Part shown: one piece after another, positions 421 to 60,295 of the stretch
Layout: the number at the start of each line of letters is the position of its first letter
How positions within the stretch are numbered: position 1 is the first letter of the stretch
DNA from: an uncultured Mediterranea sp.
Lineage (GTDB): Bacteria > Bacteroidota > Bacteroidia > Bacteroidales > Bacteroidaceae
NCBI GenBank assembly: GCA_945879145.1
Contig: CAMCUZ010000005.1
Span: 1-64,000 of the forward strand
Length of the DNA stretch: 64,000 nucleotides
Reading direction: 5' to 3'
The notes under the pieces: generated by a model
Database searches by the model: none
Seen by the model: only the letters and a program-made list of their open reading frames with translations
Told to the model about the DNA's origin: nothing
Translations under genes and position numbers: made by a program

Positions 421-3400
421 ATGATGCAAGTTAATCTTAGAATCTGTCGAACGATTCTGCCCCTACTTTTAGGGTTGTTCTTGTCAGTAGGCGTTTATGC
501 ACAGACTATCACTGTGAAAGGGCATGTAAAAGATGCCTTGGGTGAGGTGATTGGAGCGAACGTCGTTGAAAAAGGTAACCCATCTAACGGTACGATTACC
601 GACTTGGATGGTAACTTTACGCTTACAGTTCCTAAAGGAGCTATCCTTCAGGTGTCTTTTATCGGCTACCAAACAGCCGAGGTGGCTGCTGCTCCGCAGG
701 TAGTCATCGAGCTGAAAGACGATACCGAGCTGCTGAGTGAAGTGGTGGTTATCGGTTACGGTGTAGCCAAGAAGAATGACCTGACTGGTTCGGTAACGGC
801 TGTGAAGCCAGACGAGATGAACAAGGGCTTGGTAACCAATGCTCAGGACATGATGCAAGGTAAGATCGCTGGTGTGAACGTAACCAGTAGCGGTGGTACG
901 CCTGGTGGTGGTTCTACAATCCGTATCCGTGGTGGTTCGTCACTGAATGCCAGCAACGACCCGTTGATTGTTATCGATGGTCTGGCTATGGATAACCAGG
1001 GTGTAAAAGGTCTGTCAAACCCCTTGTCAATGGTGAACCCTGCTGACATTGAGAGTTTCACGGTGCTGAAGGACGCTTCGGCTACGGCCATCTATGGTAG
1101 CCGTGGTTCAAACGGTGTCATCATCATCACCACGAAGAAAGGACGTTCTGGCCAGAAACCCAAAGTGTCGTACAACGGCAATGTATCGGTCAGCATGAAA
1201 AAGAAAACTATCGACGTACTCAGTGGACAGCAGTTCGGTGAGTTGATTGAAGAGTATTACGGTGTAGGTAGCACGGAGTGGAATCTCACTGCAGGTGCAC
1301 GTCCCGACGGCTCGCTGGCATACGCCAAGGAGGTGGATGGTAAGTATGTGTATAATAATACTGATTGGCAGGACGAAATCTACAAGGCGGCCATCAGTCA
1401 CGACCACAATATAACCATTTCGGGCGGTTTGAAGAACATGCCTTATCGCATCTCGCTGGGTTACACGAATCAGGATGGTATCTTGAAGACTTCAAACTTT
1501 GAGCGTTACACCGCAACGGTGAATGTTTCACCCAAGTTCTTTGACGATCACCTCACGGTGAACCTGAATGCCAAGGGTATGATTGCCAACAACCGCTATG
1601 CAGATGGCGGTGCCATTGGTGCTGCTGTCTATATGATTCCTACCTGGAGCATCCGCTCGAATGACGACACCATGAAGAACTACTTTGGTGGTTATCAGCA
1701 ATGGACACTGGATGGCTCGGCACTTGATGACCCCACCTGGACCATCACGGCTAACCGTAATGCTACAAAGAACCCCGTGGCTACACTGGAGCAGAAGGAT
1801 GATACGGCCAACTCAAAATCGTTTATCGGTAATGCTGAATTCGACTATAAGGTACATGGCCTTGAAGACTTGCGCCTGCACATGAACGTGGGTGGTGACT
1901 TCTCTACCGGTAAGCAGACGACGATTGTATCGCCCTACTCAACCGAAAACAACTACTACGGCTGGGACGGCTGGGAAAAGATTACGAAGTACAACAAGAT
2001 GTTTAATGCATACGCACAGTACTATAAGGACTTCAATGATGCCCATCACTTCGACATCATGGGTGGTTACGAGTGGCAGCACTTCTATCACAAGGGAGAG
2101 CGCGACGGCTACGGTCTCTATCGTGACACCAACAACGATGCTGGCAAGCGTGGTACTCCCTACAATCGTAATCAGAAAGTTTGGAAGAGCGAGAACTACC
2201 TGGTATCATTCTTTGGTCGTGCCAACTACACGCTGCTCGACCGCTACATGCTGACAGCTACCGTACGTTACGACGGTTCGTCACGCTTCAAGGACCACTG
2301 GGCACTCTTCCCCTCATTCGCCTTCGGTTGGAGAATCAACGAGGAAGCCTTCCTGAAGAACAATGAAGTAATCAGCGACCTGAAGCTCCGCCTGGGTTAC
2401 GGTCAGACTGGTCAGCAGGAGGGTATCGGTGACTACAACTACTTTGCTTCTTACAACGTGAGCGACATTGCCGGTACACCGGGTAGCGCTTATCCCATCA
2501 TTGGCGACGGTACGCTCTTTCGCCCCGATGCTTACAACCAGGACCTGACGTGGGAAACTACGACCACTTACAACGCTGGTATTGACTTCGGACTCTGGAA
2601 CGGTAAGCTGAGCGGTAGCGTGGATTACTACTACCGTAAGACTACTGACCTGCTGAACTACGTCGATGTGCCCGTGGGCTCTAACTTCCGTACGAAGGTG
2701 AACAGCAACATCGGTTCGCTGAAGAACACCGGTGTGGAGGCTTCGCTGACCTATCGCCCCATCCAAGGCAAGGACCTCTCGTGGGAAATCACCGCCAACG
2801 TGACCTATAACAAGAATGAAATCACCGAACTGATAGGTGGTGACGACTACTTCGTAGCTACGGGTGGTATCTCAGCCGGTACGGGTGGTAACTGCCAGGC
2901 TCATGCTGTGGGTCATCCCGCCAGCTCGTTCTATGTATATCAGCAGGTTTACGACAAGAATGGCAAGGCTATTGAAGGGGCTTATGTAGATCGCAACGGC
3001 GATGGCATCATCAACGACAGCGACAAGTACTTCTACAAGAGCCCCGCTGCTCCCTGGACCGCTGGTCTCTCTTCGAAGATTCTGTGGAAGAACTGGGACT
3101 TCGGCTTCTCACTCCGCGCCAGCTTCGACAACTACGTCTATAACGACCTGGAGGCTGGATCGGCCAACGTCAACAAGGGTTACATCTCGCGCCTGAACTT
3201 CTTGAGCAACGTGCCCGTAATGTCAGTAGAAAAAGGATGGCAGACCAACGATGCCGTGCTCTCTGACTACTACGTGCAGAACGCTACCTTCTTGAAGTGC
3301 GACAACATCACGCTGGGTTACTCGTTCGACAAACTCTTCGGACATAACATCAGCGGACGTATCTACGGTGCCGTGACCAACGTATTCACCATTACCGACT

Positions 3401-3495
3401 ACAAGGGCATCGACCCCGAAGTATTTGGTGGTATCGACAACAACCTCTATCCCCGTCCGTTCACCGCTCAGCTGGGATTGTCACTTAATTTCTAA
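421..3495 (+). CDS. SusC/RagA-family TonB-linked outer membrane receptor
   Basis: 1024 aa; signal peptide; carboxypeptidase-like beta-sandwich (VKGHVKDALGEVIGANVVEKG), SEVVVIGYGVAKKNDLTGSV plug motif, C-terminal barrel ending in F. Confidence 0.96.
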   Translation: MMQVNLRICRTILPLLLGLFLSVGVYAQTITVKGHVKDALGEVIGANVVEKGNPSNGTITDLDGNFTLTVPKGAILQVSFIGYQTAEVAAAPQVVIELKDDTELLSEVVVIGYGVAKKNDLTGSVTAVKPDEMNKGLVTNAQDMMQGKIAGVNVTSSGGTPGGGSTIRIRGGSSLNASNDPLIVIDGLAMDNQGVKGLSNPLSMVNPADIESFTVLKDASATAIYGSRGSNGVIIITTKKGRSGQKPKVSYNGNVSVSMKKKTIDVLSGQQFGELIEEYYGVGSTEWNLTAGARPDGSLAYAKEVDGKYVYNNTDWQDEIYKAAISHDHNITISGGLKNMPYRISLGYTNQDGILKTSNFERYTATVNVSPKFFDDHLTVNLNAKGMIANNRYADGGAIGAAVYMIPTWSIRSNDDTMKNYFGGYQQWTLDGSALDDPTWTITANRNATKNPVATLEQKDDTANSKSFIGNAEFDYKVHGLEDLRLHMNVGGDFSTGKQTTIVSPYSTENNYYGWDGWEKITKYNKMFNAYAQYYKDFNDAHHFDIMGGYEWQHFYHKGERDGYGLYRDTNNDAGKRGTPYNRNQKVWKSENYLVSFFGRANYTLLDRYMLTATVRYDGSSRFKDHWALFPSFAFGWRINEEAFLKNNEVISDLKLRLGYGQTGQQEGIGDYNYFASYNVSDIAGTPGSAYPIIGDGTLFRPDAYNQDLTWETTTTYNAGIDFGLWNGKLSGSVDYYYRKTTDLLNYVDVPVGSNFRTKVNSNIGSLKNTGVEASLTYRPIQGKDLSWEITANVTYNKNEITELIGGDDYFVATGGISAGTGGNCQAHAVGHPASSFYVYQQVYDKNGKAIEGAYVDRNGDGIINDSDKYFYKSPAAPWTAGLSSKILWKNWDFGFSLRASFDNYVYNDLEAGSANVNKGYISRLNFLSNVPVMSVEKGWQTNDAVLSDYYVQNATFLKCDNITLGYSFDKLFGHNISGRIYGAVTNVFTITDYKGIDPEVFGGIDNNLYPRPFTAQLGLSLNF

Positions 3496-3519
3496 ACCCT
3501 ATTTAACTGAATTACTGAT

Positions 3520-5112
3520 ATGAAATTTAGCTTCATAAAACATATTGCTCCTGTTGCAACCCTTATGTTGTCAGTGGGATTGGGCTCGTGCGTCAACGAC
3601 TTGGACGTGACGCCGATTGACCCCAGTACGAACATGACGGCCGATTACGACGGTCTGTTCGCCAAGTGTTATGCCAACATGGCCGTAGCCGGTAACGGCG
3701 GTGCCAATGGCGATTGTGACGTAGATGGCCTAGATGGTGGTACCACTGGTTTTGTTCGTCAGCTTTGGAACGCCTACGAACTCACTACTGACGAGGCTAT
3801 GTGCTGTTGGGGTGATGAAGGTATTCCTGCGTTTAACTACAACCAGTGGGGTGCCAGCCATCCGATGCTGCGTGGTTACTATAACCGTCTCTATATCGGA
3901 GTCACCTTCTGCAACTTCTATTTGTCTGAGGCTGCTGAACATGATAAGACCATGACGGCTGAAATCCGTTTCCTCCGCGCCCTCTACTACTACTACTTGA
4001 TGGATGGTTGGGGCAACATACCCTTCTTGACCGCCTTGAGCTCGGAGGCTGCTCCGCAGGCCAGCCGTAAGGAGGTGTATGAGTTTATCGAGAGCGAACT
4101 GCTGGAGTGCGAAGCTGATATGGCAGCACCGATGAGCAACACCTATGGTCGTGCCGATAAGGCTGCTGCTTGGATGCTGCTCTGCCGCCTCTACTTGAAT
4201 GCTGAGGTTTATACTGGTTCGGCTCAGTGGGCTAAGGCTGCTGAATATGCCAAGAAGGTGATGGACAGCGGATACCAACTCCACACCCAAGGCGAAGGCC
4301 AGTGGAGTGCATACCAGATGCTCTTCATGGGTAACAACGGTGAAAACGGTGCGCAGAAGGAGGCTATCCTCCCGCTGCTGCAGGACGGTAAGCAGACCAC
4401 CAGCTGGGGTACTACCCTCTTCCTGATGGCTTCTACCTTCCAGAAGGATATGACCATCAGCGGTTCGGGTACCAACAACACCACCGAAATCTGGGCTGGT
4501 AACCGTTGCCGTCCCGACCTGATTAAGAAGTTCTTCCCCAACGGTGGCATCCCCAATGGCGACCTGAATACGATGGTAGTTGCTGCAGGCGATGACCGTG
4601 CTCTCTTCTGGGGTCAGGACCGTTCGCTCGACATCGAGGACGTTGCAACCTTCGAGAGCGGCTTCTCTTGCGCCAAGTTCCATAATTTCTACTCCAATGG
4701 CGCCACGCCGAAGGATCCTCAGTTCCCCGATGCAGACTTCTTCCTGATGCGTGCTGCCGAGGCTTACTTGGCTTATGCCGAGGCTACTGCCCGCCAGAAC
4801 AACGGAACGACAACAGCTGAAGGCGCTAATGCCATCAATAAGCTCCGTGCACGAGCCAACAACAAGGACCAAAAGACTTCGTACTCACTTAACGAAATCC
4901 TCGATGAGTGGTGCCGCGAGTTCTTCTTCGAAGGACGTCGTCGTACGGACCTGATCCGCTTCGGCAAGTTCGGCGGTGCAAGCGACTACAAATGGCAGTG
5001 GAAGGGTGGCTCCTTCGAAGGCACCAACTTCAGCGCCAACCTCAACATCTTCGCTATCCCCGACACGGATATGAATTCCAACCACAACCTGGTGCAGAAC
5101 CCGGGCTATTAA
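3520..5112 (+). CDS. SusD/RagB-family nutrient-binding lipoprotein
   Basis: 530 aa; lipobox LGSC; directly downstream of SusC; WCREFFFEGRRRTDLIRFGKF C-terminal SusD motif. Confidence 0.96.
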   Translation: MKFSFIKHIAPVATLMLSVGLGSCVNDLDVTPIDPSTNMTADYDGLFAKCYANMAVAGNGGANGDCDVDGLDGGTTGFVRQLWNAYELTTDEAMCCWGDEGIPAFNYNQWGASHPMLRGYYNRLYIGVTFCNFYLSEAAEHDKTMTAEIRFLRALYYYYLMDGWGNIPFLTALSSEAAPQASRKEVYEFIESELLECEADMAAPMSNTYGRADKAAAWMLLCRLYLNAEVYTGSAQWAKAAEYAKKVMDSGYQLHTQGEGQWSAYQMLFMGNNGENGAQKEAILPLLQDGKQTTSWGTTLFLMASTFQKDMTISGSGTNNTTEIWAGNRCRPDLIKKFFPNGGIPNGDLNTMVVAAGDDRALFWGQDRSLDIEDVATFESGFSCAKFHNFYSNGATPKDPQFPDADFFLMRAAEAYLAYAEATARQNNGTTTAEGANAINKLRARANNKDQKTSYSLNEILDEWCREFFFEGRRRTDLIRFGKFGGASDYKWQWKGGSFEGTNFSANLNIFAIPDTDMNSNHNLVQNPGY

Positions 5113-5157
5113 TCTTCAACGGTGTTCTTTTATAAACATTATAGCATAATATAAGAT

Positions 5158-6294
5158 ATGAAGAAATTATCCATATACAGCATGTTGCTCGCAGGGTTGA
5201 TGGCGTTTGCCTCCTGCGAAGCCGACAGAGACTCCAACCCCGTGCTGCAGGAACCTACTGAGTTTGTACTCAACACGCCTGCCTACGTGAACTCTGTCTA
5301 TGACCTCAGCAGCTCAAAGACTATTGAGCTGACCTGCTCGCAACCTAACTTCGGCTATACCGCTCCCACCATCTATGGAGTGGAGGTGTCGCTGACGCAG
5401 GATTTTGCCAACAGTATTGCCCTCGACACGAAATATACCACGGCAAAGATGGCTGTGGATGCATCGGAAATGGCTGTGGCCTTCACCAACCTCTGGGTGG
5501 CTGAGGGTAAACTGGAAGCTGACTTCCCGATGACCAGCGAGTTCTATGTGCGTGTGGTTGCTGAACTGACTGCAGCCAGCGGTACGATTGCTTCCATCAA
5601 GTCGAACGTGGTGAAGCTGCCTACCGTTCGCTCAGAGTTTGCACTGCCTCCTGTGAAGCTGCCTACCAAACTCTACCTGATTGGTGGCTTCTGCGACTGG
5701 GCTTGGGCCAACGCTCCCGAGATGATTCCTACCGTGGATGGTACGACGGGTGTCTTCTGGCGTATGGTTTACCTGCCTGCCAACAGCGGATTCAAGTTCA
5801 ATACGGCTACGGCTTGGGATGGTGGCGAAAAGGGTTTTGCCCACGCTACAATTAGCGACGTGGCTGGTGCCGGCACGAAGGACGACGGTGGCAATATTGG
5901 CGTAACCAACGGTGGATGGTACCTGGTAGTAATCCGCTCGGCTGTGAAGGGCCGCGACATTGAGTACACTGTAGAGATGCAGAAGCCCGAGGTATGGCTG
6001 ATTGGTGGTTGCACCACAGATGGTAAGTGGGATGAACTGATGGACGGTTGGATGTTCTCCGTACCTGAGACGGCTGACGACTACTTCGTATCGCCTGCCT
6101 TCGCCCAGGATGCTGCCGAAGGTCCCCGTGCTTACGTCAAGATTGACGGCTACGACTGGTGGAAGTCTGAGTTCATGGTATTAGACAAGAAGCTGACCTA
6201 CCGTGGTGCAGGTGGCGACCTCGACCGTGTTACTTCGAAGGCTGGACAGAGAATGTATCTGAACTTCACCAACGACACCGGTAAGATTGAATAA
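5158..6294 (+). CDS. SusE/F-like outer membrane starch-binding lipoprotein
   Basis: lipobox FASC; FVLNTPAYVNSVYDLSSSKTIELTCSQPNFGYTAPTIYGVEVS is SusE-domain-like; follows SusCD. Confidence 0.85.
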   Translation: MKKLSIYSMLLAGLMAFASCEADRDSNPVLQEPTEFVLNTPAYVNSVYDLSSSKTIELTCSQPNFGYTAPTIYGVEVSLTQDFANSIALDTKYTTAKMAVDASEMAVAFTNLWVAEGKLEADFPMTSEFYVRVVAELTAASGTIASIKSNVVKLPTVRSEFALPPVKLPTKLYLIGGFCDWAWANAPEMIPTVDGTTGVFWRMVYLPANSGFKFNTATAWDGGEKGFAHATISDVAGAGTKDDGGNIGVTNGGWYLVVIRSAVKGRDIEYTVEMQKPEVWLIGGCTTDGKWDELMDGWMFSVPETADDYFVSPAFAQDAAEGPRAYVKIDGYDWWKSEFMVLDKKLTYRGAGGDLDRVTSKAGQRMYLNFTNDTGKIE

Positions 6295-46639: not shown

Positions 46640-47515
46640 CTATTTCCGCTCTTTGCACCAGAGGTCTGGCCGGTCTGTGATGATGCCGTCAATGTCCATC
46701 TGTGGTGCATCAACTCCATCTAAAGTCCACATCTTGACTTCTTTGCCGTGCTGATGGATTTCTTTGATTAACTGATGGTTGAGTGAGCGGTAGTAGCAGT
46801 TGAAGGAGGCTACGTAGTGATACTTTTCATAGCTGAAATGCGTCAGGCGCAGACCATCTATGATGTATGGAAGGAGGGGTAACTTACCTATCAGCAATTT
46901 TTCGACTCTTATGTCTGGAGCAAGCTGATGAACTTTTTCAATCACTTCATCGGCGAACGACTGCACAATCACCCAGTTCCTTGCGTTATGCGCGTCAATG
47001 AGGTCAAGCATTCTCTGCTCAATGCCGTCGTATGCATGCTTGTAGGGGTACTTGATTTCCACAAGCAACTGAATCTGGCTCCCATTATTTCGCTCTTGTT
47101 CAAATAGTGATAGCACTTCGTCAAACGTAGCAATATGGTCACTGGTGCGCACTCCCTGTTTGTTGACTATGCGTAAGCGGGATATCTCTTGGTAAGTCAT
47201 CTTTGCAATGGTGCCTTTCCCGTCTGTCGTGCGGTTTACCGTTGGGTCGTGGCATACCACTAAGGTTCCATCACTGCTCTGATGAATATCTATCTCAATC
47301 ATATCAGCGCCACTTTCTATCCCCATTTTTAGACAGGTTAGGGAGTTCTCAGTTCCCATGCCAGCTCCGCCTCTGTGCCCGATGATGCTTCTGCCACTCA
47401 TCATGCTCTTGTCGTAGCCGCGAGGGTAGAAGAATGAGAGAACAAAGATGCTTCCTACGTAGATGACTACCAAGGAGCATACAATAATGATTGTCATACT
47501 AATCATACGCTTCAT
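46640..47515 (-). CDS. Glycerophosphodiester phosphodiesterase family protein
   Basis: SIIGHRGGAGMGTENSLTCLKMGIESGADMIEIDIHQSSDGTLVVCHDPTVNRTT. Confidence 0.94.
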   Translation of the reverse strand: MKRMISMTIIIVCSLVVIYVGSIFVLSFFYPRGYDKSMMSGRSIIGHRGGAGMGTENSLTCLKMGIESGADMIEIDIHQSSDGTLVVCHDPTVNRTTDGKGTIAKMTYQEISRLRIVNKQGVRTSDHIATFDEVLSLFEQERNNGSQIQLLVEIKYPYKHAYDGIEQRMLDLIDAHNARNWVIVQSFADEVIEKVHQLAPDIRVEKLLIGKLPLLPYIIDGLRLTHFSYEKYHYVASFNCYYRSLNHQLIKEIHQHGKEVKMWTLDGVDAPQMDIDGIITDRPDLWCKERK

Positions 47516-47535: not shown

Positions 47536-50500
47536 TTATGGTTGGAATAAATGTTTGATTAAGATTTTGACCACCTGTTCAAACCAGGCGAACGAGTTAC
47601 GCGATCGGGTGACGGCACCTATAGCCTCGATAGAGAAGTCATCTACTGGACGGACGTTCAGTAGCGCGTATGTCAGGAAGTTGCCAAACTTATGTGTCAA
47701 CACGTCCTGTAAGCTCTCACCACTGGGGTTGTAGTTGAGGATGCTCTCTTGATAGGAGCTTATGCCGGGGAAGGGCAATGCCGAGAGTTCTCGCTGTATG
47801 AAGCTATTCACCCGCTCGGGGCAATAGCTTTTTGCTGTGCTAAGCACGTTGCCTATCAGTTTGACAATGCCATACTCGTAAATACCCTTGCGGTCAAGGG
47901 GGACGCGGTCAATGAGCTCAATTTTCTCATTGCTGTCATAGCGCACCATGATATACTTGAGCAGGTCGAGGGCCAGATTGTAGTAGCCCATATCGGTGAC
48001 TAATTCCATGATATTGTCGATGAGGTGGATGAGAAGTTCTCGGTCATTCTGGTTTATTGCCTCGTCAATCAAGTCATAGAAGGCAGGCACACAACGTGAA
48101 TCTCCCTCCAGTTGACCACACTGGCCGGCATAGGTGCAATAGACAGCTGAGTACCAACTCATCAGATTTCGCTTATATTTGCCCGTAGCGTTGGCTTTGT
48201 CGCTGTGATGTCCCTTGAAGAGTCCGCGCAATCGGCGGGTCCAGTCCACTGCTTCTTTGGTGTAAATCTCGAGTAATTCTTGATTGTATCCCTTTGACTT
48301 CAGGGCAATCTGGTAGAGGGTGTAAAGGATGGACATCTGGGCGTAGTCGAACATCTTCACCTTACGGAATTCGTCACAGAAGAAACTCCTGACTACATGG
48401 GCTACATGGTCCCAGTTGCAAACACCCATGATGATCATAATGCGTTCGATAACGAAGAAACTTAGCGAGTCTCCACTCTGGTAAGCTGAAAGCAACTTCT
48501 CGTGCATAGCGTGCCAGGCTTCCTCGTCGCGGCGTTGGGCGGCTATTCGTTCAGCCGGTGCTTGTTGCCCCAGGGAGGTCAGCTCTTGCTGCTCAACGTG
48601 GAAGCAGCAGAACTTCATCAGCTCTGTGATGTCGTTCGGCTGCCAGCTAGTACCATTGTATTCAATGTTACGGAATGTATCTTTTTCCCAAAAGGTCTGA
48701 TATTCCAATGCGTTGTTTACGTAATCTGTCTGAAAGGTAACCTGTTTTTTCATTACTACCTGTAAGAAAGGCAGGATGCCCTTGACGAGATAGAGGTTGC
48801 AGGTGAGATAGCGGAACAATCCTTTCATTTCAGCAAGCATGTCGGATGCTATCGTTTGGTCGGCTTTTTCTGCCTCTTCTTCAGCTAGCATGCTGTCGAT
48901 TAGCATCAGCACGGCAAGTCGAGTTGATGTCTCAATCAGTGTGAACATGCGGGTTCGGGCTTTACGCGATGCCACATTGTATAGCAGGTTACCGCGTTTG
49001 ATGTTCAAATAGATTTGCTTTACAATCCTCACTGTCAGGTTATCCTTCAGCGGGATATGCCCATTGGTGTATGTTCGTTTTGACAGGTAATAGATATACA
49101 TGCAGGCATCATTCTTCACATCATAGATTTCGTCGGTAATGATGGTCCACAATAGGGCGAGCGCATCATGGGTGTAGAGATTCTCGTTGTAGAAGTCGGA
49201 GAGTAGCATGCCGTTGATGAGGCTGACGGAGGCCAGCTTTTTGAGGCGCATCACTGGGGCCAGCTTTACGGAGAGTATCTTGTGGCGCTCGATGATTGCA
49301 GAGTCAGCTGCATTGTTTTGTATGGCATGGACTACGGCATTGAACGCTGCTACATCTTCAGCTGCCTCGTTGCTGCTGTGAATCAGACGCGGTATGAGGG
49401 TGAATAGTTCCTCCTCGTAGTTCTCAATAATGAGGGTGCTCATGGTGTCATTAACGAGCGACATGATATTCATGTTATCACCCCATTCGCGGGCCAACTC
49501 AACCAGTACGTTGAAGTTCCCCTCTTGAAGCGATGTCATGATTAATGCGTTGCGCATGGCACCAAGGAATACAACGTTGATGTTCCCTTTTCCAATGGCT
49601 TCGCAGAAATCGCTTGCCTGCAGGGTGGTATGCCTACACAAAAAAGCCCTGCCCATAACGTACTCTAAAAAGCGTTCGTAGATGAATTGTACATAGAGCT
49701 GACTGCCTTCACGGTTTTGGCGTTCCATCTCTTTCAGTACGGGCCGTTCAGCCTTGTGAAGCAGCTCGGCGTAGGCGATGCTCACGCCATCCTTGCGGTA
49801 CATCAGCAAAGCCAGTTCATGCAAGGGCGAACGGGTATCACTTATTGCTTGCTTGATTTCTTCTACCGGCAGGCAGTCTTTGGCCTCACCATGGAGATAG
49901 GCATCGAGTAGGGCAGAACCTAGCAAATCGAGAAGTCGTCTTTGGCGGTTTCCTGCGTAGGAGTTGCCAATCTCCTCATACAGCTGATTGTAAAGGGCTA
50001 TGGAGGTGTAACAGTCGGGCTGATCTGAAAGTTCCTTGCCGAGGAATATGCCTGATGTGATTTTTAATGTCAGTGGATCACGTAGACGGAGTGCTACCCG
50101 GGCATCGAGTTGTTCGTAGGGTGTACGCATCTGGTAGAGCTGTTGGTAAATACCGTATGCCTTGGCGGCATCCTTGTCATTGAATCCCCTTACCTGTATG
50201 TGATTCTTTGGTGTGAACAGGAAAGAGGTTTGAGACTCGGTATGGGGTACAATCAGGTTGGCCCAAGTAAAATTTCTGCATGTAAAGAGCAGCTTGAATC
50301 GCGAATATTCCTGGCTGATGAATATCCTGCATAACGCCTTATAGAGTAGTAATGGCCCCTCAGTTTCACTCTCATCCTCTTCGGCGTAGTGTAGGCACTC
50401 GTTCAGCGCATCAATAAAGATATAGACATCTTGGTTGTTGGCGTGAGCCTTGCTGTGGATATTGTCCATCAGGCGTCTGATGTCCTTTCTGTTATTGTAT

Positions 50501-51597
50501 CCAAACATCGATTTAATCGAAAGGTCCAGACTGACGAATGAGAAGTCAGAGGCAGCCAATGTCAATACCGGCATGTCCCGGCCTATCAGTTGTTCGGTCC
50601 AGTAGGCCAACTGCGTGGTTTTACCTTGTCCAGCCTCACCAATCAGTGGGTAGAGTGTCTTGTCGCTACGATGGAAATCATGAAGCGTGTCCGTCAGTTC
50701 CTGACGCTCAACAAAGAGCTCCTCGTTGTATTTCTTTTCCGCATAGACTCGCTCCAGGTAGGTGGTTGAGGCGGTCTGCATGCATTTCTTGATTTCTGCC
50801 CAGTTTTTATCCTTCGCAATGTCGAAAGAAGGTACAATCTCTTGGAATGTTTTATCTATGGCCTCATTCATGTGGTCAGAGATGTAGGTTACTGCATTCT
50901 CATTCGAAGCCATGTAGCATGTCTGTTCATCCTTCAGTGTCTGGAGTACGTAGCGATAGTCGCGTTCGTTGCAGAACACCAAGGGGTAGAGGTCAATCCG
51001 CTTGCCCGTCATGGCGAAGTCTATCTTATAGTGACCCTGGCCTATGTCGTACCTGCACTTGGACAACGGCATGAGCGCCTCAATCATGGCGCTGACGCGA
51101 GGTAGCAACAGGTCGTCAACGCCATGGTAAATCTCTTCAGACAAGGTGGTGGAGTGACCACGATACTCATTTCTTATCTGTACGATGCTGGGCATGCTCT
51201 TCGACCCAAGCAGTATATTGCGCCTTTTTATGTAGATAGTAGCGGAGAAACTGCTGGAGAGTGGGTCGTCGGGTAGATGCTTGATGGCGGCAGACAGCAA
51301 GGGGGTAAACAGGTCGTTGAGCCAATCACCAAAAGAGAGCGGACGCTTCGCATCAATGCGGTTGATAAATTGTTCTAAGACGGGCAAAATGGTTGATTGA
51401 GTTGCAGCCTCTTGCTGCAGTAAGCGCAAGAAGATATAGGAACAGAATGGAACTGAAACCTCGAAAAAATCGAGCAGGTGATTCATGGCCCTGCCATACT
51501 TCCCTTCGCAATAAGCAGCATGAGCCTGCTCAAGCGGATGGCTTAGCGTATAGGGCATCTGGGTTACATCACGTAGGTTGTAGAGTAGGTTCTCCAT
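47536..51597 (-). CDS. Large STAND/NACHT-like P-loop NTPase
   Basis: Walker A PLIGEAGQGKTTQLAYW; Walker B VYIFIDALNECLH; LLFTCRNFTW sensor-like; long helical C-terminus; start set at MENLLYNL (51597). Confidence 0.75.
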   Translation of the reverse strand: MENLLYNLRDVTQMPYTLSHPLEQAHAAYCEGKYGRAMNHLLDFFEVSVPFCSYIFLRLLQQEAATQSTILPVLEQFINRIDAKRPLSFGDWLNDLFTPLLSAAIKHLPDDPLSSSFSATIYIKRRNILLGSKSMPSIVQIRNEYRGHSTTLSEEIYHGVDDLLLPRVSAMIEALMPLSKCRYDIGQGHYKIDFAMTGKRIDLYPLVFCNERDYRYVLQTLKDEQTCYMASNENAVTYISDHMNEAIDKTFQEIVPSFDIAKDKNWAEIKKCMQTASTTYLERVYAEKKYNEELFVERQELTDTLHDFHRSDKTLYPLIGEAGQGKTTQLAYWTEQLIGRDMPVLTLAASDFSFVSLDLSIKSMFGYNNRKDIRRLMDNIHSKAHANNQDVYIFIDALNECLHYAEEDESETEGPLLLYKALCRIFISQEYSRFKLLFTCRNFTWANLIVPHTESQTSFLFTPKNHIQVRGFNDKDAAKAYGIYQQLYQMRTPYEQLDARVALRLRDPLTLKITSGIFLGKELSDQPDCYTSIALYNQLYEEIGNSYAGNRQRRLLDLLGSALLDAYLHGEAKDCLPVEEIKQAISDTRSPLHELALLMYRKDGVSIAYAELLHKAERPVLKEMERQNREGSQLYVQFIYERFLEYVMGRAFLCRHTTLQASDFCEAIGKGNINVVFLGAMRNALIMTSLQEGNFNVLVELAREWGDNMNIMSLVNDTMSTLIIENYEEELFTLIPRLIHSSNEAAEDVAAFNAVVHAIQNNAADSAIIERHKILSVKLAPVMRLKKLASVSLINGMLLSDFYNENLYTHDALALLWTIITDEIYDVKNDACMYIYYLSKRTYTNGHIPLKDNLTVRIVKQIYLNIKRGNLLYNVASRKARTRMFTLIETSTRLAVLMLIDSMLAEEEAEKADQTIASDMLAEMKGLFRYLTCNLYLVKGILPFLQVVMKKQVTFQTDYVNNALEYQTFWEKDTFRNIEYNGTSWQPNDITELMKFCCFHVEQQELTSLGQQAPAERIAAQRRDEEAWHAMHEKLLSAYQSGDSLSFFVIERIMIIMGVCNWDHVAHVVRSFFCDEFRKVKMFDYAQMSILYTLYQIALKSKGYNQELLEIYTKEAVDWTRRLRGLFKGHHSDKANATGKYKRNLMSWYSAVYCTYAGQCGQLEGDSRCVPAFYDLIDEAINQNDRELLIHLIDNIMELVTDMGYYNLALDLLKYIMVRYDSNEKIELIDRVPLDRKGIYEYGIVKLIGNVLSTAKSYCPERVNSFIQRELSALPFPGISSYQESILNYNPSGESLQDVLTHKFGNFLTYALLNVRPVDDFSIEAIGAVTRSRNSFAWFEQVVKILIKHLFQP

Positions 51598-51641
51598 CAG
51601 TAAAAAGGTCAATATGAATAAGTATTGTAGCTATTTTATTG

Positions 51642-51649
51642 CAAATATA
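51642..51649 (-). promoter_or_regulatory. -7 element (TATATTTG) of the STAND NTPase gene
   Basis: CAAATATA on plus strand, about 45 nt upstream of the start. Confidence 0.5.
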
Positions 51650-51693
51650 GGGGATTTTTATGGTACGATGGATAGATTCTAAGTTGTTTTTAT

Positions 51694-51701
51694 TAATTTT
51701 G
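51694..51701 (+). promoter_or_regulatory. -7 element TAATTTTG for the divergent membrane protein gene
   Basis: TAnnTTTG match upstream of ATG 51789. Confidence 0.4.
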
Positions 51702-51788
51702 CCGATGTTAATGCAGATTCTTCACTTTATGACGAGTTAAAGTGGGGGGTATGCCGCATTTTTTTTGAACCCTAACAGCAGTAAAACC

Positions 51789-53087
51789 ATGTATGAACTG
51801 ACAGCCTACCTTTGTGGACATTTCCATCGTGATAAAGAGGTGACACCTCAGCAACTCGCTCAGGAACAGTGGAATCTTTGGCAATTCGATGATACGGAGA
51901 TTGTATCACTGAAGCGTATGTTCTATGCTGAGTTGATTGACTTCTTCTCCAATCGCTGTATCATGATGAAGAAGCAGGTTGACAGCGAACTGCTGCTACC
52001 TTTTCGCGACAGTCAATATAGCTATCATGTGGATGAATTGGCTGTTTACCAGATGCCAATGGGGATGACGCTCTTCTCCGTCTGCATCCAGATGACCGTG
52101 GCTGACCTGAATGAGGTAACGGCTGTGCTCTCTTCGCTCCGAATGATAGATTCCTATCAGGATGGGACGCATAACTCCTTCGTAGAGGTGGCCCTTCATC
52201 CGATTAAAAACGTGTACGACCTCTCAGTCAACAATCCGCTTTCCTCCATCTCGGCACTGGTTGAGAATGGCAATAAGTTAAGAATATACCAAGTAGTGAA
52301 TGAGAAGGTTAGTGGAGGGGATAGCCATCATACGGTGTATGAAAACAGCGAGTTGCTGTTGTTTCAACTAGGGTCGGTGTCCAAAGTCACCACAGGCATC
52401 GATGACTATTCCCCGGCTGACATCTACCTGCAGAAGGTGATGGAGGAGAGCCGCTTATCCATTTTTCGTAACTGGCAGGCCCTGAGTCTGCTGGATACGT
52501 TTACCATTCAGGCTACCAACGCTCCCGCATGGTTGGTTGAGAACTGGATTACGAGTTACTTCACCTTGATTTATATACATGCACTTTTCGTGAAGTGTTT
52601 TCTCTTCAGATTAAACAAGCAGTTGCGCGCTGTGATGATGGATCAGCCTTCGGCTATTACGAGATTATTGGGGGCATTGGGTGGTGAGAACTCTGAGATT
52701 TACAAACTGATACGCGATTTTAATCAGTTTGACCAACAATGTCGTTTTCATAAGATATCCTACAACTTCATGCCGCTGGAGATGGCAAGCGCCATAGACC
52801 GTGGCCTCTGCATCAGTGAGGAGCTTGAATTGCTCGACAAGGTGATAGAACGCGAAAAGCAACGACGGGACGAAGCCAACGACAGGATGGTCAATACGTT
52901 GCTCTTCATCCTGTCCACACTGACCCTAGGCTCTGCCATTTGGGACTTCTCCTGTCTTTTGGACCAGATGTTCCCCTACAGTGACTATTTAGGTTCCAGC
53001 ATATTGGGCTACCGCACTGTAGCCTTTATGTTCTTGCTGGCTTTGGTTTTTGTATTGACCAAGCTGTTTCGGAAAAAAGAGAGATAG
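51789..53087 (+). CDS. Hypothetical protein with helical stalk and two C-terminal TM helices (CorA-shaped)
   Basis: REKQRRDEANDRMVNTLLFILSTLTLGSAIWDF...GYRTVAFMFLLALVFVLTKLFRKKER; start set at ATG 51789 (track uses TTG 51765). Confidence 0.65.
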   Translation: MYELTAYLCGHFHRDKEVTPQQLAQEQWNLWQFDDTEIVSLKRMFYAELIDFFSNRCIMMKKQVDSELLLPFRDSQYSYHVDELAVYQMPMGMTLFSVCIQMTVADLNEVTAVLSSLRMIDSYQDGTHNSFVEVALHPIKNVYDLSVNNPLSSISALVENGNKLRIYQVVNEKVSGGDSHHTVYENSELLLFQLGSVSKVTTGIDDYSPADIYLQKVMEESRLSIFRNWQALSLLDTFTIQATNAPAWLVENWITSYFTLIYIHALFVKCFLFRLNKQLRAVMMDQPSAITRLLGALGGENSEIYKLIRDFNQFDQQCRFHKISYNFMPLEMASAIDRGLCISEELELLDKVIEREKQRRDEANDRMVNTLLFILSTLTLGSAIWDFSCLLDQMFPYSDYLGSSILGYRTVAFMFLLALVFVLTKLFRKKER

Positions 53088-54989: not shown

Positions 54990-56834
54990 ATGAAAAATAT
55001 GATGAAGAATAGATTTTTTAGCTTATGGGCCTTGCTGCTGGTTGCCGTTCAGGTGGCTGCCGAGGCTACGGTGATTTCAGTCAATAGTTTTGGCCTGAAG
55101 CCCAACAGTCGTGTGAATGCTACGCCTTACGTCAAGGAGGCTCTCGAAGCGTGCCGTAACCATCCCGAAGCGATACTGACCTTTGAGAAGGGGCGCTACG
55201 ACTTCTGGGAAGCCCATGCCACGGAGCGGGACTATTTTGAGTCGAATACCTACGACAACAATCCCAAGATTCTGGCTATCTTGCTCGATGAGATGCAGGG
55301 AGTAACGCTCGATGGACAGGGATCGGAGTTCATTATGCACGGCCGCATGCAGCCCATCACGCTGCATCGCTGCAAAGCCATCACGCTACGCAACTTCTCC
55401 ATCGACTGGGATATTCCGCTGACGGCCCAAGGCCGCGTGATTAACAGCTCATCTACCTACATGGACCTGGAGATTGACACGGATCAATACCCTTATATCA
55501 TCGAAAACGACTTGCTCACCTTTGTGGGCGAGGGGTGGAAGAGCACCGTCTGGAGCATGATGCAGTTCACCCCCGATACGCACCTGGTCTGCCCCAATAC
55601 AGGGGATAACTTGGGTTGGAAGCGCTATGATGCCAAGGAGTTGAAGAAGGGCGTAGTGCGCCTCTCCGAGATGAGTGGCAAGGAGCCTTTCCCCGCACCG
55701 GGTACCCTGGTCGTATTGCGCCACAACAGCCGCGACCATGCTGGCATCTTCCTCTTTCACAGCGAGGAGGTGAAGATGGAGCATATCAACGTCCACCACA
55801 CCGGTGGCCTGGGCATCTTGTCGCAGTATTGCCGCGACATCTCCTTCCTCGACGTGAACATGATACCCAATGCAGCCAAGAACCGCGTGCTGAGTGGCCA
55901 TGACGATGGTTTCCACGTAATGGGCTGTAGCGGCAAGGTGATGATAGACAGCTGCCGCTTTGCTGGGTTGATGGACGACCCCATCAATATTCATGGTACC
56001 TGCTCACGTATCGTCAAGGTGCTGTCGCCCACACGTTTGCAATGCCGCTTTATGCAGGATATGAGTGCCGGTATGGAGTGGGGGCGCAGAGGCGAGACTG
56101 TAGGCTTTATCGAGACCAAGACCATGCGGACGATTGATCAGGGAGTGATTACCGGTTACGAGCAGGTCAACAAGGAGGAGTTCATCCTGGAATTCAGCGG
56201 ACCTGTTCCAACAGCTATTCAGGAGGGCTATGTGGTAGAGAACCTGACCTGCACGCCCGATGCGGAGATTCGCAACTGTCATTTCGGTAGCTGCCGTGCC
56301 CGTGGGGTGCTCGTTTCTACTCCGGGTAAGGTGGTGATTGAGGATAATGTTTTTGAGAGCAGTGGCTCAGCCATCTTGATTGCTGGCGACGCCAACTATT
56401 GGTTTGAGTCGGGTGCCGTGAAGGACGTGACCATCCGCGGCAATGAGTTCCGCTATCCTTGCAACTCCTCCTCTTATCAGTTCTGCGAGGCCATCATCAG
56501 CATCTATCCCGAGATACCTGCCCCCGACGTGCGCTATCCCTTCCACCGCAACATCCGCATCGAGGGGAACACGTTCCACCTGTTCGATTATCCCATTCTT
56601 TACGCCCGTTCGGTTGATGGCCTTACTTTCTTGGACAACAAGCTGATTCGCAACACGACCTATCAGCCTGCTCACCGCCGCAAGGAGGGCATCACCTTGG
56701 AGTACTGCCGCAATGTGCGCATTGGCCGCAACCAGGTAGAGGGCGAGGTGCTCGGTTCGAAGGTGAAGCTCGACCACACCGCCCGTGGCAGCGTGAAGTT
56801 TGTCAAGAACAACTTCTTCAAGCTGGTGAAGTAA
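54990..56834 (+). CDS. GH110-like alpha-1,3-galactosidase (right-handed beta-helix), copy 1
   Basis: signal peptide; VTLDGQGSEFIMHGRMQPITLHRCKAITLRNFSIDWDIPLTAQG; beta-helix repeats. Confidence 0.85.
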   Translation: MKNMMKNRFFSLWALLLVAVQVAAEATVISVNSFGLKPNSRVNATPYVKEALEACRNHPEAILTFEKGRYDFWEAHATERDYFESNTYDNNPKILAILLDEMQGVTLDGQGSEFIMHGRMQPITLHRCKAITLRNFSIDWDIPLTAQGRVINSSSTYMDLEIDTDQYPYIIENDLLTFVGEGWKSTVWSMMQFTPDTHLVCPNTGDNLGWKRYDAKELKKGVVRLSEMSGKEPFPAPGTLVVLRHNSRDHAGIFLFHSEEVKMEHINVHHTGGLGILSQYCRDISFLDVNMIPNAAKNRVLSGHDDGFHVMGCSGKVMIDSCRFAGLMDDPINIHGTCSRIVKVLSPTRLQCRFMQDMSAGMEWGRRGETVGFIETKTMRTIDQGVITGYEQVNKEEFILEFSGPVPTAIQEGYVVENLTCTPDAEIRNCHFGSCRARGVLVSTPGKVVIEDNVFESSGSAILIAGDANYWFESGAVKDVTIRGNEFRYPCNSSSYQFCEAIISIYPEIPAPDVRYPFHRNIRIEGNTFHLFDYPILYARSVDGLTFLDNKLIRNTTYQPAHRRKEGITLEYCRNVRIGRNQVEGEVLGSKVKLDHTARGSVKFVKNNFFKLVK

Positions 56835-57647: not shown

Positions 57648-58253
57648 TTAGCTGAGCAAAAACAACAACCACATCAGGGATGGAGGTGGCGTTGTATGCT
57701 TTGCAGTAGGTGAAGCATCCTTCTTGCAGATCAGGTGTTGTCGAAGATAATGGAGTACCTCGCTGAGGTGCTTCTCTACGGTGCGTTCTGAAATGTTCAG
57801 TCGTTTTGCAATTTCTGCATAGGTGAGTAGCTCCTGACGGCTCAGTCGATAAACCTCTTGTTGCCGTGGCGTGAGCTGGCTAACGAGGTGGTCAATCTGT
57901 TCAGAGAGGTCGGCTGCCGACAATTCCCCCTCCACATCTACAGCACTTGCCGTAGATTCGAGCACAGTCAAATCAAAAAAGACCTCGTTGAATGAACTAC
58001 GTTGACGAGCAAAGATGAGATTGCGAGTAGATATGAAGAGAAAACCTTCAAAACTCTGCTCCTCATCGATTTTTTCCCTAATTTCCCATAGATGGATAAA
58101 CAGTTCTTGAACCATATCCTCCACTTCGGTTGCAGAGCGGATGTAGAGGCTCACAAAGGAGTAAACCTTCGGCCAATAGGCGCGGTAGATCCTTTCAAAG
58201 GCTTCAGCGTCACCCTCTTTGAAGCGGGATATGATGTACTTCTCCATAATCAC
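57648..58253 (-). CDS. RNA polymerase ECF-type sigma-70 factor
   Basis: FKEGDAEAFERIYRAYWPKVYSFVSLYIRS...VEDMVQELFIHLWE...LTPRQQEVYRLSRQELLTYAEIAKRLNISERTVEKHLSEVLHYLRQHL. Confidence 0.95.
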   Translation of the reverse strand: MIMEKYIISRFKEGDAEAFERIYRAYWPKVYSFVSLYIRSATEVEDMVQELFIHLWEIREKIDEEQSFEGFLFISTRNLIFARQRSSFNEVFFDLTVLESTASAVDVEGELSAADLSEQIDHLVSQLTPRQQEVYRLSRQELLTYAEIAKRLNISERTVEKHLSEVLHYLRQHLICKKDASPTAKHTTPPPSLMWLLFLLS

Positions 58254-58298: not shown

Positions 58299-58459
58299 TA
58301 GCAAAGAGCTTGGAATGGTTTACAAAGGTTAATAGTGGGGTTAAATTGCAAATTATTATTTATTTTCTACGGGTAATAAAGGTCAATATGCATATTCAAT
58401 AGCGTGACTCAATAACCTAATTCAAAACCTTTTTTTATATTGTGATTAAAAACAACCTC

Positions 58460-60295
58460 ATGAAGAACAGATTATTCAGTTTATGGGCCTTGCTGCTGGT
58501 TGCCGTTCAGGTGGCTGCCGAGGCTACGGTGGTTTCGGTCAACAGCTTCGGACTGAAGCCCAACAGTCGTGTAAATGCTACGCCTTACGTCAAGCAGGCT
58601 CTCGAAGCATGCCGTAAGCATCCCGAAGCGATACTGACCTTTGAGAAGGGTCGCTACGATTTTTGGGAGGCGCATGCCACGGAGCGGGAGTATTTTGAGT
58701 CGAACACTTACGACAACAATCCCAAGATTCTGGCCATCCTGCTCGACGAGATGCAGGGAGTGACGCTCGACGGACAGGGCTCGGAGTTCATCATGCACGG
58801 CCGTATGCAACCCATTACCCTGCATCGCTGTAAGCACATTACGCTCCGCAACTTCTCCATCGACTGGGATATTCCTCTGACGGCACAGGGCCGTGTAGTA
58901 GGCAGCTCGCCCCAGCACATGGATGTGGAGATTGATACCGAGCAATACCCTTATATCATCGAGAACAATCAGCTCACTTTCGTAGGTGAGGGGTGGAAGA
59001 GTGTCTGTTGGAGCATGATGCAGTTTACCCCCGATACGCATCTGGTCTGCCCCAATACCGGGGATAACCTGGGTTGGAAGCGCTATCATGCGGAGGAACT
59101 GAAAAAAAGCGTAGTGCGTCTCACCGACCCCGAGGGCAAACCTACACCCTTTCCAGCTGTGGGTACCCTGATTGTACTTCGTCACAACAGCCGCGACCAT
59201 GCCGGCATCTTCCTTTTCCATAGCGAAGAGGTGAAGATGGAGCATATCAACGTACACCACACCGGTGGTCTGGGCATCCTGTCGCAGTACTGCCGCAACA
59301 TCTCCTTCCTCGACGTGAATATGATACCCAATGCAGCCAAGCATCGCGTACTGAGTGGACACGACGACGGCTTCCATGTGATGGGCTGCAGCGGCAAGGT
59401 GATGATAGACAGCTGCCGCTTTGCCGGGTTGATGGACGACCCCATCAACATCCACGGCACCTGCTCACGTATCGTCAAGGTGCTGTCGCCAACGCGTTTG
59501 CAATGCCGCTTCATGCAGGACATGAGTGCCGGCATGGAGTGGGGACGTGCAGGCGAGACCGTGGGCTTTATCGAGACGAAGACCATGCGTACCGTAGGAC
59601 AGGGGAGCATCACCAAGTACGAGGTGGTGAATAAAGAGGACTTCATCGTGGAGTTCAGTCAGCCCATCCCGGAAAGCATTCAGGAGGGTAACGTGCTGGA
59701 GAACCTCAGCTGTACGCCCGATGCAGAAATCCGCAACTGTCATTTCGGAAGCTGCCGTGCCCGTGGTGTGCTGGTTTCCACTCCGGGTAAGGTGGTGATT
59801 GAGGACAATGTCTTTGAGAGCAGCGGCTCGGCCATCTTGATTGCTGGCGATGCCAACTACTGGTTTGAGTCGGGAGCCGTGAAGGATGTCACCATCCGTG
59901 GCAACGAGTTCCGCTATCCCTGTAACTCCTCCTCTTATCAGTTCTGCGAGGCCATCATCAGCATCTATCCCGAGATACCCGCTCCCGACGTGCGTTACCC
60001 CTTCCACCGCAACATCCGCATCGAGGGGAACACCTTCCATCTGTTCGACTATCCAATCCTTTATGCCCGTTCGGTAGATGGCCTTACCTTCCTGGATAAC
60101 AAGCTGATTCGCAACACCACTTATCAGCCTGCGCATCACCGTAAGGAGGGTATCACCTTGGAGTATTGCCGCAACGTGCGCATTGGCCGCAACCAGGTAG
60201 AGGGCGAGGTGCTTGGCTCGAAGGTGAAGCTCGACCACACCGCTCGCAGTAGCGTGAAGTTCATTAAGAACAACTTCTTCAAAATAGTGAAGTAA
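58460..60295 (+). CDS. GH110-like alpha-1,3-galactosidase, copy 2
   Basis: near-identical architecture and long identical blocks to 54990-56834; start set at ATG 58460 (track uses GTG 58442). Confidence 0.85.
   Translation: MKNRLFSLWALLLVAVQVAAEATVVSVNSFGLKPNSRVNATPYVKQALEACRKHPEAILTFEKGRYDFWEAHATEREYFESNTYDNNPKILAILLDEMQGVTLDGQGSEFIMHGRMQPITLHRCKHITLRNFSIDWDIPLTAQGRVVGSSPQHMDVEIDTEQYPYIIENNQLTFVGEGWKSVCWSMMQFTPDTHLVCPNTGDNLGWKRYHAEELKKSVVRLTDPEGKPTPFPAVGTLIVLRHNSRDHAGIFLFHSEEVKMEHINVHHTGGLGILSQYCRNISFLDVNMIPNAAKHRVLSGHDDGFHVMGCSGKVMIDSCRFAGLMDDPINIHGTCSRIVKVLSPTRLQCRFMQDMSAGMEWGRAGETVGFIETKTMRTVGQGSITKYEVVNKEDFIVEFSQPIPESIQEGNVLENLSCTPDAEIRNCHFGSCRARGVLVSTPGKVVIEDNVFESSGSAILIAGDANYWFESGAVKDVTIRGNEFRYPCNSSSYQFCEAIISIYPEIPAPDVRYPFHRNIRIEGNTFHLFDYPILYARSVDGLTFLDNKLIRNTTYQPAHHRKEGITLEYCRNVRIGRNQVEGEVLGSKVKLDHTARSSVKFIKNNFFKIVK

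Follow-up and report, generated by a model that had tools for sequence, protein, structure and literature searches.

The window analysed here, a 64,000-nucleotide part of one contig from the 2.5-Mb genome of an uncultured Mediterranea sp., contains a large P-loop NTPase gene transcribed away from a gene for a protein with two transmembrane helices. An earlier note on this DNA proposed the two as a candidate defence or signalling pair. The locus raises the question of which genes belong together here and what their products might do.

A linked, co-inherited accessory unit in Bacteroidales

The two open reading frames are present on opposite strands, as first described. The STAND/NACHT-type NTPase gene occupies positions 47536-51597 of the minus strand (1353 aa from its ATG, in an ORF of 1358 codons that runs to 51612) and the CorA-like membrane protein gene positions 51789-53087 of the plus strand (432 aa from its ATG, in a 440-codon ORF from 51765). 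Since homologues start at equivalent positions, with N-termini that match MENLLYN (STAND) and MYELTA (CorA-like), the ATGs at 51597 and 51789 are probably the true starts. The divergent intergenic region between them (51598-51788) spans 191 bp, close to the ~190 bp previously given. The −7-like boxes reported for both genes do exist at 51642-51649 (minus strand) and 51694-51701 (plus strand), but TANNTTTG shows no enrichment, with 33 occurrences across the window versus 27.8 expected from shuffles. Because this frequency is close to chance, we regard the boxes as plausible only and do not use them as evidence for promoters.

A single scan of 84,980 species genomes identified 59 loci in Bacteroidales (L041-L099) and one spurious match; no convincing locus was found outside Bacteroidales in these genomes. 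With tblastn checks included here and in the GDPD count below, a CorA-like gene lies near the STAND gene in 54 of the 56 loci with sufficient contig and is absent in L063 and L095. In all relatives that were first examined, the STAND gene is directly followed by a gene for a lipid-type phosphodiesterase of the GDPD family, and this arrangement holds for 53 of the 54 loci with sufficient contig (absent in L073). The window gene (46640-47515, minus strand) lies directly downstream of the STAND gene and encodes a 291-aa protein with an N-terminal membrane anchor. It is the sole GDPD gene of its genome, other genomes tested having one or two, and the GDPDs of the triad split from other GDPDs in a tree with modest support (68). 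On the basis of linkage, tree and copy number we rejected a housekeeping neighbour. The description of the pair as flanked by housekeeping genes was therefore mistaken on the STAND side, where the flanking gene is a component; housekeeping genes form the outer flanks of the triad, and no defence-island context is seen. The commonest neighbour besides the triad occurs in only 5 of the 59 loci, and outer genes vary.

Elsewhere in the window, positions 54990-56834 and 58442-60295 encode two near-identical ~615-aa proteins with signal-like N-termini, an apparent recent duplication. A sigma-factor-like gene (57648-58253, minus strand) lies between them.

Pairwise protein distances across 39 loci are strongly correlated among the three proteins (0.949, 0.923 and 0.905; none of 1000 permutations was as high). 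Shared ancestry of the hosts adds to these correlations, and we therefore read the co-divergence as co-inheritance rather than contact. The system genes occur in just 10-11 of 399 family genomes, carriers that overlap with the 59 loci of the scan. In G747, the nearest genome of the same genus that we found, the search gave no triad; the flank genes, 70-89% identical, are not linked to one another there. Because it is rare in the family and missing from close relatives, the unit is accessory rather than core. Its GC content is 0.47-0.49 versus 0.51 for the window, and no copy was found in phage, plasmid and viral-contig collections. The STAND, CorA-like and GDPD genes form a linked, co-inherited three-gene accessory unit in Bacteroidales. 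These data bear out the accessory insertion suggested in the earlier note; its pair is indeed co-inherited, but as part of a unit of three genes. Of the findings named there as able to overturn the proposal, neither a lack of co-occurrence nor universal conservation as core genes was observed.

Predicted properties of the three proteins

The P-loop, Walker B motif and conserved core place the large protein, by sequence, among the STAND/NACHT NTPases; it is a large ATPase and a relative of innate-immune receptors in bacteria and animals. The Walker A (GEAGQGKTTQ) and Walker B (IFIDALNE) motifs first noticed are conserved in 51 homologues. Across 52 sequences, Walker A (GEAGQGKT, residues 324-331; 50617-50640, minus strand) is at least 98% conserved, and D400 and R445 are likewise conserved in the alignment. 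The protein matches Pfam NPHP3_N above the cut-off (2.2e-6) and scores 11.6 bits against Pfam NACHT, under the 26.7-bit cut-off. A deep homologue in L188, in which a SAM domain precedes, passes the NACHT cut-off (1.2e-10). The PADLOC Avs2 model matches residues 249-664 (7.7e-13), which comprise the NTPase core only, and is itself covered over positions 273-663 of 1504 (45 bits). We thus retain the earlier characterisation as Avs-like for the core, which resembles those of Avs and NACHT proteins, and reject membership of Avs2.

The C-terminal region (residues ~680-1357; 47536-49572, minus strand) is the presumed sensor. It is conserved as strongly as the rest of the protein, with a majority-residue frequency of 0.50-0.64 across all stretches, and is not hypervariable. 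Searches of Pfam and of PDB sequences returned no family or solved relative for it, and as far as Pfam is concerned the region indeed has no recognisable repeat class. The STAND genes of L042 (G071:C168, 1831-5886), L047 and L081 contain in-frame stops or frame breaks, which reflect either decay or assembly error.

An all-helical module (residues ~20-185; 51055-51552, minus strand) followed by a small beta domain (residues 186-244) is predicted at the N-terminus by AlphaFold2 (pLDDT 91.2, helices at 20-184). The same module occurs behind the SAM domain of the L188 homologue. It contains a motif, R146-N147-x4-H152 (51154-51174, minus strand), that resembles the Rx4-6H motif of HEPN domains. R146, N147 and H152 are invariant in 56 of 56 STAND sequences, and E50 is conserved too. 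The STAND protein could thus itself be the toxin, its N-terminal module a HEPN RNase that the CorA-like protein and the GDPD regulate or localise; the motif is kept in the SAM-domain homologue, and its spacing varies in L038 as Rx4-6H allows. However, none of the 56 members has a HEPN match in Pfam, HEPN was not recognised among PDB sequences, and Foldseek against PDB structures gave no significant match, with HEPN absent from the matches shown. Nor did the 56 members yield a recurrent Pfam nuclease family. We consider a toxic STAND protein unlikely.

The CorA-like protein resembles CorA by fold, with weak similarity in sequence. PADLOC CorA matches its C-terminal part (2.3e-5). An AlphaFold2 model (pLDDT 89.7) predicts an alpha/beta cytoplasmic domain and a long stalk helix that runs into TM1 and is followed by TM2, the CorA-type C-terminal arrangement of a stalk and two transmembrane helices. 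CorA structures are the best Foldseek matches of this model, at moderate strength (probability 0.90 and 0.82, E 0.008-0.01), and their N-terminal domains are unlike that of the CorA-like protein. The CorA-like shape described in the earlier note is thus supported, and its two C-terminal helices are backed by model and hydropathy, TM2 being clear and TM1 milder. The pore motif GMN is missing, as first observed, here and in all system members compared, whereas it is found in 5 of 7 type III-B CorA proteins and in 4 of 4 Mg-type proteins; the system members thus lack this mark of a CorA Mg2+ transporter. Six loci instead encode a CorA-like protein of a second subfamily, upstream of the STAND gene on the same strand. 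On the STAND tree, a single branch accounts for the replacement of subfamily 1 by subfamily 2, which suggests that the effector was swapped in one event. Both subfamilies and type III-B CorA show a distant whole-length relationship (E 1e-5 to 7e-5).

The third protein contains a GDPD domain (Pfam accession PF03009, 4.8e-37), with catalytic residues H47, R48, E74, D76 and H89 conserved in 50 homologues. A simple hydropathy rule applied to these 50 proteins assigns a membrane anchor, signal peptide or lipobox to 39, a weak signal to 1 and none to 10. This predicted, predominantly extracytoplasmic location favours action on envelope phosphodiesters and speaks against an off switch that removes a nucleotide in the cytoplasm.

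Such an off switch would be expected if the system relied on a second messenger. In type III-B CRISPR systems, CorA acts as an effector at the membrane, binds SAM-AMP and has a phosphodiesterase partner (PMC10600005). By analogy, the STAND protein, through its N-terminal module or a partner, might make or trigger a nucleotide signal that is bound by the cytoplasmic domain of the CorA-like protein and removed by the GDPD, as NrN does for SAM-AMP. The pairing of a CorA-like channel with a phosphodiesterase and the whole-length alignment with type III-B CorA (E 7e-5) are consistent with this idea. Against it, most GDPDs would not encounter a cytoplasmic nucleotide, and the N-terminal model of the STAND protein matches no nucleotidyltransferase fold significantly. 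Cas10/Cmr2 is missing from seven triad genomes, including that of the window, and from the neighbourhood, and on this ground we also rejected a type III CRISPR remnant. A second-messenger mechanism seems improbable.

Relatives of the CorA-like protein beside Cas13b and elsewhere

Relatives of both CorA-like subfamilies adjoin Cas13b in type VI-B loci. The gene directly after Cas13b (1.8e-208) in L040 (5279-11804), a locus with an eight-copy array, encodes a protein that aligns over its full length with subfamily 1 (hhalign E 9e-51). The type VI-B locus of L153 (745-10299) is complete: RT-Cas1, Cas2, Cas13b and an array of 13 copies are all present. The CorA-like protein beside this Cas13b likewise aligns over its full length, here with subfamily 2 (hhalign E 3e-48). 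In L181 (7424-13082), a subfamily-2 gene lies directly upstream of Cas13b. CorA-like genes are present in 2 of the 10 Cas13b genomes of the family sample, and Cas13b was not found in the window genome. Csx28, an accessory protein of Cas13b, forms an octameric pore and depolarises the inner membrane (PMC12669027). The CorA-like proteins in these three cases are candidate accessories besides Csx27 and Csx28, and our search of the open-access literature found no CorA-like protein described in type VI-B CRISPR. Directly upstream of Cas13b, L040 also encodes a protein that has a caspase domain (Peptidase_C14) and Sel1 repeats (2930-5260).

Subfamily-1 relatives further belong to a unit whose other members are a TPR-SpoIIE phosphatase and a ~200-aa protein that matches no known family (L189:396-4389, L190:2178-9833, L191:866-4626 and L192:4507-11847). 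The CorA-like protein is fused to the phosphatase in L192. An nSTAND1-WD40 NTPase adjoins this unit in L190 at least, and a similar ORF is found in L192. A similar-looking ~200-aa gene lies beside a CorA-like gene in L187 (4911-5504), and L188 (3815-11002) contains a four-gene variant that consists of CorA-like, a ~190-aa partner, SAM-STAND and GDPD genes.

Proposed function and comparison with known systems

We propose that the three genes constitute one accessory system of an NLR-like sensor, a CorA-type channel and an envelope phosphodiesterase, with anti-phage abortive infection as its most likely role, a reading to which we give about an even chance. As a cytoplasmic sensor, the STAND protein would detect an invasion cue through its C-terminal region and assemble when it binds ATP. 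Its N-terminal module with the RNxxxxH motif would then activate the CorA-like protein, probably a pentamer in which a two-TM pore is joined to a cytoplasmic domain. Opening of this pore, which we assume to conduct ions, would cause a leak, so that the infected cell stops growing or dies. The GDPD, which in most members is exported or anchored in the membrane, may act on envelope phosphodiesters and either add to the damage or limit it. The channels formed by plant NLR resistosomes offer a parallel to a channel driven by a STAND protein.

Several observations favour this sensor-channel arrangement. The triad is near-constant, its proteins diverge in a correlated manner, it is sparsely distributed, and its effector appears to have been exchanged once. 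Relatives of both CorA-like subfamilies occupy the slot beside Cas13b in which Csx28 is known, CorA-like proteins also accompany nSTAND1-SpoIIE genes, type III CorA acts as a membrane effector, and the fold match to CorA and the Avs2/NACHT-like core fit the assigned roles. We infer a defence role from the association with CRISPR loci and the patchy distribution; given that its channel protein has close relatives that adjoin Cas13b, the triad is probably an anti-phage or cell-suicide system. Uniform conservation of the C-terminal region, the ~10 of 50 GDPDs that lack an export signal, the weak sequence similarity to CorA and the loci that lack the CorA-like gene or the GDPD gene argue against the arrangement. 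The main counter-evidence to defence is the lack of a defence-island context and of mobile carriers.

The missing defence-island context would fit a role in envelope-stress or lipid-turnover signalling, in which the STAND protein would sense membrane damage and control ion flux through the CorA-like protein and glycerophosphodiester turnover through the GDPD. Of the three products, two are exported or lie in the membrane, and the presumed sensor is conserved uniformly. In addition, TPR-SpoIIE phosphatases, which carry a stress-signalling domain, accompany related CorA-like genes. The very patchy presence of the system and the CorA-like relatives within complete CRISPR loci are a better fit to defence, and we hold a stress-signalling role to be doubtful. 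Finally, the null hypothesis of three unrelated chance neighbours is in effect refuted by linkage in more than 50 loci with differing outer genes, even though the genomes tested have only one or two GDPDs.

Tentatively, and with slightly less confidence than we have in abortive infection, we suggest that the triad is an undescribed NLR-like immune system and that channel modules have been exchanged between NLR-like sensors and RNA-guided Cas13b. Such modules would make up a membrane effector class triggered by protein sensors, CRISPR RNases and type III nucleotide messengers. If so, bacterial immunity would gain a multi-gene NLR-like system in a dominant order of the gut, and its carriers would include the named reference strain Phocaeicola plebeius DSM 17135, at locus L055. 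How a STAND sensor acts on a membrane channel that is a protein of its own would become testable, and the answer would bear on what switches on CorA-like effectors in type III and type VI-B CRISPR systems and next to STAND sensors. The GDPD would represent an enzyme class that we did not find described in such systems in the open-access literature, where we also found no paper that joins STAND with CorA or GDPD.

The triad shares with Avs2 (AVAST) a STAND NTPase core and a large C-terminal region that is presumed to be the sensor. It differs in that the Avs2 model covers the core only, the STAND protein has no recognised N-terminal nuclease, and the effector role probably falls to a membrane protein encoded separately, accompanied by a GDPD. 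Like bNACHT proteins, it includes a NACHT-type NTPase, as the L188 homologue indicates by passing Pfam NACHT; the window protein scores below that cut-off and belongs to a co-inherited multigene unit. Type III-B CorA likewise sits in the membrane, has a cytoplasmic domain and is paired with a phosphodiesterase, but the triad has no Cas10, NrN/DEDD/lyase or GMN, and its GDPD is of an unrelated family and mainly exported. Csx28 is a membrane protein that adjoins Cas13b, a slot also occupied by relatives of both CorA-like subfamilies; it is, however, small and a protein of another kind, and the window genome is without Cas13b. The third protein has the domain and the catalytic His, Glu, Asp and His of the GlpQ-like GDPD family (PF03009), within which the GDPDs of the triad form a group of their own that is tied to the STAND gene.
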